In this document: piece after piece, positions 15,982 to 22,538 of the stretch
How positions within the stretch are numbered: position 1 is the first letter of the stretch
Layout: every line of letters begins with the position of its first letter
From: Coriobacteriia bacterium
GTDB lineage: Bacteria > Actinomycetota > Coriobacteriia > Anaerosomatales > PHET01
Direction: 5' to 3'
Length of the DNA stretch: 32,240 bases
NCBI GenBank assembly: GCA_009779675.1
Contig: WRDS01000015.1
Location: forward strand, 1 to 32,240
Notes under the pieces: model-generated
Seen by the model: only the letters and a program-made list of their open reading frames with translations
What the model was told of the DNA's origin: nothing
The model's database searches: none
Translations under genes and position numbers: made by a program

Positions 15982-16057
15982 GGCTGGCGGTGGCCAGCTG
16001 GCGGAGTGAGGCCAGCCAGCCGGTTGGATCTTTGTATTTTTCTGGCTCTTGTCGTCT
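15982..16057 (+). terminator. Putative terminator region after the amidase gene
   Basis: Alternating GCTGGC/GCCAGC arms (15983-15988, 15993-15998, 15997-16002, 16011-16020) able to form hairpins, followed by T-rich tttgtattttt. Confidence 0.45.
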
Positions 16058-16098
16058 GCCGATGACAGGATCTTATTTTTGGAAGCGGACATTAGGAG

Positions 16099-16184
16099 GT
16101 GAGACCAACGGAACCTGACAGTACCCGAAGTACGACGTGTGCGCGGAGCGCATGTATTGGTTGCAACAGGTTCTGGCGTCTCAC
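16099..16184 (+). ncRNA. Candidate structured cis-regulatory leader RNA of mgtA
   Basis: Nested stems GTGAGAC(16099-16105)/GTCTCAC(16178-16184) and GAACCTG(16111-16117)/CAGGTTC(16167-16173), inner hairpins GTAC-ccgaa-GTAC and TGCGC-gga-GCGCA; located in the ~290-nt gap before mgtA. Confidence 0.4.
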
Positions 16185-16223
16185 GTCGTTCCGCTGATGG
16201 CCATGCGCCCGCCTGGTTTTTAG
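16152..16223 (+). CDS. Candidate mgtA leader peptide MYWLQQVLASHVVPLMAMRPPGF
   Basis: ATG at 16152, in frame to TAG 16221-16223, ending 19 nt before mgtA ATG; terminal Pro-Pro-Gly codons; too short for the ORF track; RBS spacing is short (GGAG 16145-16148). Confidence 0.35.
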   Translation: MYWLQQVLASHVVPLMAMRPPGF

Positions 16224-16242: not shown

Positions 16243-18918
16243 ATGGCAAAAAAAATAACGCAGACCACAATAACGCAGCAGGAGCGCGTGAAGCGTCGCC
16301 TGTTGAATGCTGCACGCAAAGCGCCGGAGATGTTGTTGATCCAGTACGACAACATGAACGACGGATTCGACGAAGAACAAGTAGACGATATGCGCGACCA
16401 GTACGGCGCAAACCTCATCACCCGTCAAAGAAAGGCCTCGGTGCTGCAGCGATTGTGGTCCGCGTTTGCGGATCCTTTTACTGGCGTGCTGCTTGTCCTC
16501 GCGCTGATCTCATTGTTCTCTAAAGACCTCCCGGCAGTCATCATCGTTCTGACGATGGTCCTGATAAGCGGCCTGTTGAGCTTTATCCAGGAGCTACGCA
16601 GCAGCAACGCGGCAGAAAAACTCGGCGAGCTTGTTGAGACGACAACTGCGGTAATGCGCCGTGACGAGGATGCGGAGACATCAGAGAAGCGCGAGATACC
16701 ACTCGATGAGGTGGTTGTTGGCGACATCGTGCATCTTGCCGCTGGCGACATCATCCCTGCCGACGTGCGGATCCTGCGTGCGAAAGACCTGTTTATCAGC
16801 CAGTCGTCGCTCACCGGTGAGAGCGAGTCGGTAGAGAAGTTCATGGAGCCGGTGGCGGGAAGGCCAGCCAGCCCGCTCGATCTGAACAATCTGGCGTTTA
16901 TGGGCAGCACGGTGATCTCTGGTTCGGCGGCGGCACTCGTCCTTGCGGTCGGGGATGATACCGAGCTTGGCAAGATCGCGTCGCAGTTGCAGGAAAAAGC
17001 ACCTCCGACGAGCTTTGAAAAGGGCGTTTCCGCCGTCTCATGGGTGCTGATACGCTTTATGCTCGTCATGGTGCCGATAGTGCTCTTTTTAAACGGGTTC
17101 ACGAAGGGCAACTGGCTACAGGCGCTCATTTTCGCACTGTCTGTTGCGGTCGGTCTCACGCCAGAGATGCTGCCGACGATCATGTCGGCGAACCTCGCAA
17201 AAGGCGCGGTGTTCATGGCCAAGAAGCAAGTCATCGTAAAAGAGCTGAACTCGATTCAGAACTTTGGCGCGATGGACATCCTTTGCACGGATAAGACCGG
17301 GACGCTGACGCAGGACAAGATCATCCTTGAATACCACCTTGACGTGCATGGCAACAGCGATGTGCGCGTGCTGCGACATGCGTTTTTGAACAGCTACTAC
17401 CAGACGGGACTGAAAAACCTGATCGACATCTCGATCATCGAGCGTGCCCACGAGGAACAGGTCGCACCGCACGAGGATGCATACACGAAGATCGACGAGA
17501 TCCCGTTCGACTTCGCGCGGCGGCGCATGAGCGTTGTTGTGACTGATGGGAACGGCAAGACGCAGCTGATCACAAAAGGAGCAATAGAGGAGATGCTCGC
17601 AATCTCGTCCTACGTCGAATACGGGGACGATGTGACGCCGATGACAGACGAGCTGCGGCGCGAGGTCTTGGAGACGTGCAACAACTACAACGCGGACGGG
17701 CTGCGTGTCCTCGGCGTGGCGCAGAAGACGAACCCGTCCCCGCAAAGCGCGTTTTCGGTAGCGGATGAGGCCGACATGGTGCTGATCGGCTACCTTGCGT
17801 TCCTTGACCCGCCAAAGGAGAGTGCAGCGGACGCGATCGCCTCGCTCGGCGAGTATGGGGTGGGCGTAAAGATCCTCACCGGGGATAACGATGTGGTCAC
17901 GAAAAGCGTCTGTCGCCAGGTGGGCCTCGATGCGGGGCATATCCTGCTCGGCGCGGATGTCGAGGGGATGGATGACGAGCGTTTGAACAGCGCGGTCAAA
18001 GAGACGACGGTGTTCGCAAAGCTCTCCCCTCAGCAGAAGGCGCGGATTGTCAAGGCGCTGCGCGAGGATGGTCACACTGTTGGGTACATGGGCGACGGGA
18101 TCAATGATGCTACTGCGATGAAAGCTGCCGATGTCGGCATATCCGTTGATACGGCGGTCGATATCGCACGGGAGTCAGCGAACATCATCCTTATGGAGAA
18201 GGATTTGATGGTGCTTGTACAGGGTGTCATTGAGGGGCGGAAGACCTACGCGAACATCATCAAGTACATCAAAATGACTGCCAGCTCGAACTTTGGCAAC
18301 ATGTTCTCAGTGCTGATTGCAAGCGCGCTTCTCCCGTTTCTGCCGATGATGCCGATCCAGTTGCTGCTTTTGAACCTGATCTACGACATCTCGTGTCTGA
18401 CGATCCCGTGGGACAACGTGGACAAAGAGTTCTTGGCGGTGCCACGGAAATGGGATGCATCGTCCATCAGCAAGTTCATGGTCTGGTTTGGCCCGACAAG
18501 CTCGGTGTTCGACATAACGACGTATATGCTGATGTACTTCGTGATCTGTCCGCTTGTAAGCGGCGGGCTGCTGTTCCACCAGATAACGGATCCGGCTGTG
18601 GGCGCGCACTACATTGCGATGTTCCAGGCCGGCTGGTTTGTCGAGTCGATGTGGAGCCAGACGCTTGTAATCCACATGATCCGCACGCCCAAGCTGCCGC
18701 TCATCAAGAGCCGAGCATCTGCGCCCGTTACCCTGCTCACAGCGACCGGTATTGCCGCGCTGACCATAATCCCGTTCACGGGGTTTGGCGAGGCAATCGG
18801 GCTGGCACCTCTGCCGCCTGTGTATTTTGCGTGGCTTGCCGGGACGGTTTTCTTGTATATGGCACTTGTAACAGGCGTAAAGAAGGTATTCGTGAAAAAG
18901 TACGGGGAGCTGCTGTAG
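16243..18918 (+). CDS. mgtA: MgtA-type magnesium-translocating P-type ATPase
   Basis: [78 protein letters not shown]; MgtA/B-type C-terminal TM region ([28 protein letters not shown]). Confidence 0.94.
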
Positions 18919-19037: not shown

Positions 19038-19113
<76 letters not shown>

Positions 19114-19409: not shown

Positions 19410-19484
19410 GGGCCCGTAGCTCAACGGTGGAGCAGGGGACTCATAATCCCTTGGCTGCAGGTTCGAATCCTGCCGGGCCCACCA
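19410..19484 (+). tRNA. tRNA with CAT anticodon (elongator Met or lysidine-modified Ile2), CCA encoded
   Basis: GGGCCCG/CGGGCCC acceptor, GCTC/GAGC D stem, GGGGA-CTCATAA-TCCCT anticodon arm, GCAGG-TTCGAAT-CCTGC T arm, ACCA end. Confidence 0.95.
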
Positions 19485-20510: not shown

Positions 20511-22538
20511 GTGATCCTTTCAGTCGACAACCTCACCAAGACCTTTGGGTCCCGGGTGCTCTTCTCGGGTGCCTCGCTTCGCGTGGGGGTGCGTGACCGA
20601 GTTGCGCTCATCGGCCCGAACGGTGTTGGCAAGACGACGCTTTTCGAGGTCATCGCTGGCCGTCAGGATGCCGACGAGGGTACGGTCACCGTTGCCCGTG
20701 GCGCGGTCATCGGCTATTTGGAGCAAGAAGCAATCGAGATGTCAGGCCGCACGGTGCTCGACGAGGCCCTTACGGCGGCAAGCCACGTCACCTCGCTTGA
20801 GCACAGGCTTCGGCTGCTTGAGGAAGAGGTCTCTGGCACCGAGGGTGAGGAGCAGGAGCGCCTGCTCGCCGAGTACGGGCGTGCGCAGGAGCGCTTCGAG
20901 GATCTCGGCGGGTATACGGTAGAGGCCGAGGCCCGCTCCGTTCTCGGCGGCCTGGGGTTTGCCGAGGGCGATCTTGCGCGGGATGCCGGGGAGTTCTCAG
21001 GTGGCTGGCTCATGCGGCTTGCGCTCGCAAAGCTTTTGCTCATGCGGCCAGATATCCTGCTTTTAGATGAGCCGACCAACCACTTGGACCTCGAGAGCGT
21101 GACGTGGCTTGAGGGTTTTTTACGTGGGTACGACGGCGCGCTCCTCTTGATAAGCCATGACCGGGCGTTCATCAACGGGCTGGCAACCTGCGTTGCCGAG
21201 ATCGAGAACCGGCGCGTGACCGTTTACACCGGGGACTATGAGTCGTACGAGCGGCAGCGTGCGTTTGCTATTGAGCAGCGCAAGAAACAGCGTGAGGCGC
21301 AGCTCAAAGAGATCGCGCACATGCAGGCGTTCGTGGACCGGTTCCGCTACAAGGCATCAAAGGCGACGGCCGCCCAAGACCGCGTGCGGCGTATCGAAAA
21401 GATCCGTGCGGAGCTTGTCGAGGCACCCTTGGAGCGCAAAACGGTGAAGTTCCGCTTCGCACAACCGCCGCGGACCGGCGACATGGTCGTCTCGTTTGAG
21501 GGCGTGTCGAAGGCGTACGGCGACCTCGTTGTGTACGAGGGCCTGGACCTTTCCCTTTACCGAGGGGATAAAGTTGCGCTTGTTGGGCCGAACGGGGCTG
21601 GCAAGTCGACGCTGTTGCGCATGCTTGCGGGCGTGCTTCCTATAGACGAAGGGAGGCGCAGGCTTGGCGCTGGGGTCGAGACAGCCTACTTTGCGCAGCA
21701 TCAGGTCCAATCCCTTACGCCCGATGCGACCGCGTTCCAGACAATCGATCGGGTAGCGCCCGGATGGACGCAGGGCGAGGTCAGAGGGCTCCTCGGCGCG
21801 TTCCTGTTCGAGGGGGACGATGTCGACAAGAGGGTGCGCGTCCTCTCGGGCGGGGAAAGGGGGCGGCTTGCGCTGGCGAAGATGCTCGTAAAGCCCGCTC
21901 CGTTGCTGTGCCTCGACGAGCCGACCAACCACCTTGACATTGCCTCAAGCGACGTGCTGGAGCAGGCGCTCTTGCGGTTCGCGGGAACGATCGTGCTGAT
22001 CACGCACGACCGCCACCTGATCCGCTCGGTTGCAAACAAGATCGTCGAGGTGGGCGAGGGGGGCATCACCGTCACCGAGGGCGATTACGGCTACTGGCTC
22101 TGGAAGCGCGAGGAGCAGGCGCGCAAGGATGCCGAGAAAGCCGAGGCGGGTGCCAAAAGGAGCGCTCCTTTGACCGGCAGCCCGGCTGCTAGCGCCCACG
22201 GCACCTTGAGCGACGCTATCGCCACCGGCCAGACGGTGGGGCCTAAGACCCGCGAGCAGAAGCGTGCGGAGGCCGAGGCACGAAACAGCACGTTCCGTGC
22301 GACTAAGGTCTGCCGAGAAAGGCTTGCACGCGTGGAGGATGAGCTGGCATCAGCGCAGGCCCGTTACGATGAGCTTGTTGCAAAGATGGCTGAGACCGAG
22401 TTCTACTCGGACCGTGACAGCTTCGAGTCGGCACTTTCCGAGTTCACCGGTTTAAAGCGTAAAATCCCTGTATTGGAGGAGGAGTGGATCCAGGTCTCGG
22501 AAGAGATCGTAAGGCTTGCCTCGGATCAGGAGTCCTGA
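20511..22538 (+). CDS. ABC-F family ATP-binding protein (duplicated NBD)
   Basis: Two Walker A motifs ([18 protein letters not shown]), two LDEPTNHLD Walker B motifs, [15 protein letters not shown] signature, no TMD, C-terminal coiled coil. Confidence 0.93.

Follow-up and report, generated by a model that had tools for sequence, protein, structure and literature searches.

The leader of a magnesium transporter gene, mgtA, in a Coriobacteriia bacterium is probably a Mg2+-sensing translational switch for that gene, run by a short acidic leader peptide, here termed uORF1, in the manner of the enterobacterial leaders mgtL and mgtQ. The whole stretch of DNA analysed, 32,240 nucleotides of contig WRDS01000015.1, is referred to as the window, and the features of the leader are collected in Table 1. 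The gene downstream is a true MgtA, as its match to TIGR01524 (1164.7 bits) confirms. The initial annotation had proposed an analogue of mgtL in this leader and assigned the role of the peptide to another small ORF, one that ends in Pro-Pro-Gly (PPG). Of this proposal, a leader peptide very probably acting together with alternative stems is retained, and the identification of that peptide with the PPG ORF is not supported.

Table 1. Features of the mgtA leader and of mgtA, in positions of the window
Feature	Position	Strand	Evidence
Terminator-like hairpin 16047-16070, then TCTTATTTTT	16047..16080	+	Consensus scan; by-eye comparison with L016, L018 and L023
Shine-Dalgarno of uORF1, AGGAGGTGA	16094..16102	+	-11.5 kcal/mol with the anti-SD; PWM block 1
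uORF1, ACG-EPDSTRSTTCARSACIGCNRFWRLTSFR-TGA	16108..16197	+	Top PWM site; architecture common to the window and L016
H1, uORF1 start region 16095-16129 with uORF1 3' half 16156-16188	16091..16198	+	Duplex and fold z
H3 5' arm, candidate anti-anti-SD, pairing with 16192-16213	16142..16162	+	Energy; covariation in 13 relatives
PPG ORF of the initial annotation, GTG 16137 / ATG 16152	16137..16223	+	Translation, SD energies, comparison with relatives
Candidate second small ORF MAMRPPGF, 3' part of the PPG ORF	16197..16223	+	No SD; shared by L016 alone
H2, anti-SD arm 16200-16214 with the mgtA ribosome-binding site and start codon	16200..16247	+	Hairpin energy
mgtA, magnesium-translocating P-type ATPase, 891 aa	16243..18918	+	TIGR01524 1164.7 bits; NF011702 1177.1 bits

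The uORF1 element couples a strong Shine-Dalgarno (SD) sequence to a short acidic ORF and is present in 52 of 80 related mgtA leaders, 48 of them recognised by eye and the full 52 after a PWM scan. Its consensus runs RGGAGGTGA, usually 4-7 nt, and a start codon, opening a peptide of the form M-[D/E]-[P/S/T/A]-[D/G/E]-(G)-S. In the window the element spans 16094-16197 in a frame differing from that of the PPG ORF, and its frame of 28 codons closes with TGA at 16195-16197. The PWM built from the relatives scores 25.2 bits at ACG 16108, the runner-up in the window reaching 12.4, and when both strands of 1.58 Mb of locus sequence are scanned, 54 of the 61 sites of at least 16 bits fall in mgtA leaders, most of these 54 being training sites. 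Comparison of the sequences establishes both the conservation of uORF1 and that of its acidic second codon (49 of the 52 relatives). The window peptide starts with Glu-Pro-Asp (EPD), a single copy with no EPDP-like repeat, and [DE]P[DE] occurs within the first 18 residues in 19 relatives versus 1.5 expected. Conservation shows codon periodicity: counted from the start codon, positions 3, 4, 7 and 9 each hold some 1.5-2 bits of information, as against 0.03-0.44 at the wobble positions 5, 8 and 11. Serine at codon 5 or 6 is specified by AGY in 59 of 60 cases compared with about 38% in the mgtA genes, a bias which implies that the nucleotide sequence is under constraint too. Among the relatives uORF1 is 19-65 codons long (median 32) and mostly stops 5' of the strand here called the anti-SD arm; the most similar copy is that of the locus L016 (MESTEGSRSTTR...). 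Several relatives, including L065, have what appear to be tandem uORF1-like acidic ORFs before mgtA, at the following distances from the MgtA match: L068, -405/-174; L026, -598/-319; L031, -827/-464; L093, -933/-232. No Rfam family matched the uORF1 portion of the leaders, and lax thresholds on the leaders of the window and L028 returned chance matches.

From its sequence and that of its relatives, the mgtA leader is very probably an RNA switch composed of three helices, H1, H2 and H3, with H3 excluding H2 where the two overlap. H1 folds uORF1 back on itself: in the window its duplex has a z of -3.9 and the fold of 16090-16200 a z of -3.62 (0 of 200 shuffles), and over the leaders the mean z is -2.1, with 36 of 53 at -1.64 or below. 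H2 is formed in the window by GCCAUGCGCCC pairing with GGGC...GCAUGGC, and this hairpin covers the mgtA SD and start codon. Its energy is -22.4 kcal/mol (z -2.53, 2 of 200 shuffles); in this GC-rich leader a duplex-only test of H2 is not significant (p 0.56). The equivalent pairing joins GCGCCCGCCU to the mgtA ribosome-binding site AGGAGGGCGC in L016, and CCCGCCUUUU to AAAAGGAGGG in L018. Over 49 leaders the pairing of the anti-SD arm with the mgtA ribosome-binding site has a mean z of -1.79, with p≤0.05 in 21, as against a mean of +0.16, with p≤0.05 in 5%, for ribosome-binding-site pairing in 37 control genes. RNAalifold recovered H1 and H2 unprompted from nine leaders; standard pairs make up 90.4% of their counts versus at most 53.5% when the strands are slid, and double-change cells number 9 versus 3.1 in shuffles. 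H1 and H2, too, are established by the sequence comparison as conserved among the relatives.

H3 joins the middle of uORF1 to the sequence that flanks the anti-SD arm on its 5' side, and the ATG at 16152 of the PPG ORF lies inside its 5' arm. Its covariation among relatives is likewise established by the comparison: across 13 leaders 93.6% of its positions pair as against at most 56.4% when slid, with 17 double-change cells versus 5.9 and a covariation of 0.763 versus 0.379 +/- 0.057. A first test of pairing between uORF1 and the anti-SD arm gave a weak signal, with a mean z of -0.34; with the arm extended 12 nt upstream, an extension chosen after inspecting alignment A3, from which the H3 covariation itself comes, the mean z is -0.95 over 53 leaders. 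In the window the putative H3 has an energy of -24.6 kcal/mol, with a weak z of -0.91 in a broad test and -2.71 in a narrower one. RNAalifold recovered both H1 and H2 from alignment A2, with little covariation, and H3 alone from alignment A3, with no H1 or H2, perhaps through misalignment. Since helices and alignments were picked post hoc and the sequences are related, the shuffle counts overstate significance, and more weight should be given to the slid controls.

In E. coli and Salmonella, acidic residues near the start of the leader peptide—EPDP in MgtL, Asp2 and Glu5 in MgtQ—destabilise ribosomes (PMC11282234, PMC8092293, PMC11552253). In MgtL this destabilisation is favoured by low Mg2+ (PMC11282234, PMC11552253), and in MgtQ the mgtB ribosome-binding site is released via a mutually exclusive stem (PMC8092293). 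Sequence features of these leaders recur here: an SD and a translated-looking short ORF, starting with ACG in the window, precede the gene for a Mg2+ P-type ATPase; acidic and Pro residues come right after the start; and mutually exclusive stems are found in the relatives, with H1 and H2 supported in the window. From this analogy we infer both the sensing of Mg2+ via ribosome destabilisation and the polarity of the switch. With enough Mg2+, uORF1 would be translated in full, and the anti-SD arm would bind the mgtA ribosome-binding site in H2 and keep mgtA off. In low Mg2+, the N-terminal Glu-Pro-Asp would destabilise ribosomes and cause early drop-off from uORF1, so that the untranslated middle of uORF1 would pair with the anti-SD arm in H3 and free the mgtA ribosome-binding site. 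When ribosome footprints are imposed on static folding, H2 persists in every state except that with a ribosome at the uORF1 stop; a ribosome at this stop in the window would open H2 in the model, possibly inverting the polarity.

The leader shares with enterobacterial mgtL a short ORF before mgtA with an acidic and Pro-containing start (EPDP in E. coli, EPD in the window), mutually exclusive stems and the expectation that poor translation turns mgtA on (PMC11282234, PMC11552253). It differs in that the output of mgtL is Rho-dependent transcription termination, whereas the anatomy here is that of a hairpin occluding the ribosome-binding site, and in that mgtL has four alternating Pro codons (3, 5, 7 and 9), whereas the window uORF1 has one (codon 3) and its relatives have no such series. 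With Salmonella mgtQ, the leader of mgtB, it has in common an AGGAGG SD, acidic early codons (2 and 5 in mgtQ), the alternation of stems 1:2 and 3:4 with stem 2:3, and an anti-RBS that sequesters the gene for a Mg2+ P-type ATPase (PMC8092293). However, mgtQ has 8 codons and lies within the mgtC-mgtB operon, whereas uORF1 has 19-65, lies in the mgtA 5' leader and contains the switching strand inside the ORF. The Mycobacterium tuberculosis rv1805A/pe20 leader is similar in being Mg2+-related, in having a uORF after an M-box and in its logic of SD, anti-SD and anti-anti-SD (PMC12810186). In that leader, however, the uORF is under the control of the aptamer and encodes a peptide reported to be mycobacteria-specific (PMC12810186), whereas the uORF1 peptide is a different one and the window has no M-box.

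Indeed, the M-box (RF00380) finds no match in the window leader up to an E of 10, nor in the genome. Of the 34 related loci that were scanned for it, 21 have it upstream, and all 21 also have uORF1, so that aptamer and leader peptide stand in series in many relatives. In the window, a terminator-like hairpin adjoins uORF1 upstream, and relatives with the M-box have a similar hairpin at the matching place. Two such hairpins stand in tandem at 15992-16080, between an amidase gene and uORF1. The second may be a leftover expression platform, since it occupies the place of the terminator in the M-box relatives. The constant company of uORF1 in the M-box loci, together with the M. tuberculosis case in which an M-box governs a uORF (PMC12810186) and the predicted opening of H2 by a ribosome at the window uORF1 stop, would suit a role in which uORF1, though translated, is not itself the Mg2+ sensor and serves just to couple translation to mgtA, or to hold the RNA open once an upstream aptamer has decided. 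We consider such a role unlikely: coupling needs no strongly conserved acidic N-terminal residues, uORF1 ends before the anti-SD arm in most relatives, and the element also occurs without the M-box (the window, L014, L019, L020, L023 and others).

The MgtA protein of the window is 60-80% identical to proteins from termite-gut and other gut genomes. In a tree it is placed far from its own class, within a supported (98/90) termite-gut clade of MAGs whose labels, to be taken with caution, span many phyla. MgtA proteins of the same order are only 40-42% identical and have no uORF1, and none occurs in three other genomes of the same family. The gene has a GC content of 0.565 versus 0.62 in the flanking genes. 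The clade placement, the GC difference and the absence from the three same-family genomes suggest that mgtA was acquired horizontally. As DNA, the window leader matched none of 40 relatives, and nothing was found among viral contigs; the near relatives of the window genome all lack this leader. Two divergent tRNA genes lie downstream of mgtA, at 19041-19113 (-) and 19410-19481 (+). A gene for an ABC-F protein, a member of a family of ribosome-associated ATPases, is found 1.6 kb downstream of mgtA (20511-22538); the protein scores above the cut-off of NF000355 and below that of EttA. In E. coli, MgtL is a target of EttA, itself an ABC-F protein (PMC11282234); the nearness of this gene to mgtA may be due to chance.

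All 52 relatives start uORF1 with ATG, GTG or TTG, whereas the window copy has ACG at 16108; an in-frame GTG at 16099 is an unlikely start because it is located within the SD. The ACG may be a sequencing error, a weak start or a sign of decay. In a different uORF, that of M. tuberculosis, an ATG-to-ACG change reduced expression without abolishing it (PMC12810186). We infer that the window copy is functional in spite of its ACG start. The ACG, the apparent horizontal acquisition of mgtA and the want of an M-box in the genome would also be expected of a decaying remnant, which came with a transferred mgtA, lost its M-box and then its uORF1 start, and no longer regulates the gene. This is somewhat less probable still than the non-sensing role, in that the SD, the 28-codon frame, the acidic N-terminus and H1 and H2 are all intact.

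The PPG ORF is correctly located and translated (GTG 16137..16223 gives MCAERMYWLQQVLASHVVPLMAMRPPGF, with ATG 16152 in frame). It ends in ...MAMRPPGF with a TAG at 16221-16223, 19 nt 5' of the mgtA ATG at 16243, and this stop does overlap a TTTTT run (16217-16221) as had been observed. The run is absent in L016 and placed elsewhere in L018; a consensus scan finds no stem immediately 5' of it, and as a terminator it was set aside. Among 500 shuffled leaders, 0.4% have a small ORF with PPG and 8.6% one with any Pro-Pro, such that the motif is not trivial, though picked post hoc. Its frame has poor initiation signals: the SD energies are -0.6 kcal/mol at GTG 16137, -5.4 at ATG 16152 (spacer about 3 nt) and +1.1, i.e., no SD, at the in-frame ATG 16197, versus -11.5 kcal/mol for uORF1 in the other frame, which had gone unmentioned. 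The full-length PPG ORF is probably not a functional leader ORF. Its 3' part, MAMRPPGF, starts in an overlap with the uORF1 stop (TGATG), and L016 has the same overlap opening the frame MDSRPPAHTA. These two are the only cases of a Pro-Pro small ORF at the corresponding position among 53 leaders (1 of 52 relatives). A Pro-Pro stall leader would be expected to conserve Pro-Pro towards the end of its ORF; no such conservation is found across the 53, and the leader peptides show no Pro-Pro enrichment (11 observed, 10.4 expected). Hence, the claim that the PPG ORF is the leader peptide fails on in-frame conservation in close relatives, L016 excepted: 51 of 52 have no Pro-Pro frame, and what is conserved is the acidic uORF1 peptide.

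The Pro-Pro codons are accounted for at the RNA level: CGC-CCG-CCT, which would read Arg-Pro-Pro if translated, forms the 5' arm of H2, and CGCCCGCCT, which would encode these residues, serves as the anti-SD arm in the pairing with the mgtA ribosome-binding site. In L018 the corresponding nucleotides lie outside uORF1. The PPG frame is probably for the most part a side effect of the RNA strand masking the mgtA start site, whether or not the frame is translated. That the PPG ORF, or MAMRPPGF coupled via TGATG, is the sensor, with an EF-P-dependent stall at Pro-Pro-Gly selecting the stems, is therefore most improbable, for all that few shuffled leaders have a small ORF with PPG, L016 has both the TGATG overlap and Arg-Pro-Pro, the genome encodes EF-P and Pro codons play a part in Salmonella mgtL.

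Beyond the window, there is a real, if tentative, prospect that these leaders make up an undescribed and widespread mgtA leader family of Bacillota and other gut bacteria, in which an M-box and a ribosome-destabilising acidic peptide act in series with a translational output; the window would represent the peptide alone, with an ACG start. A search limited to the open-access literature found no description of the uORF1 leader family outside Proteobacteria and mycobacteria. Mg2+ sensing via the drop-off of ribosomes from an acidic nascent chain has been reported for enteric bacteria (PMC11282234, PMC8092293, PMC11552253). If true, a conserved acidic mgtA leader peptide in many Gram-positive and gut lineages, accompanied by covarying stems and frequently preceded by an M-box, would point to ribosome stability as a sensor of Mg2+ in wide use, and the uORF1 family would offer cultivable species such as those of Lacrimispora, Phascolarctobacterium, Lactococcus and Eisenbergiella.
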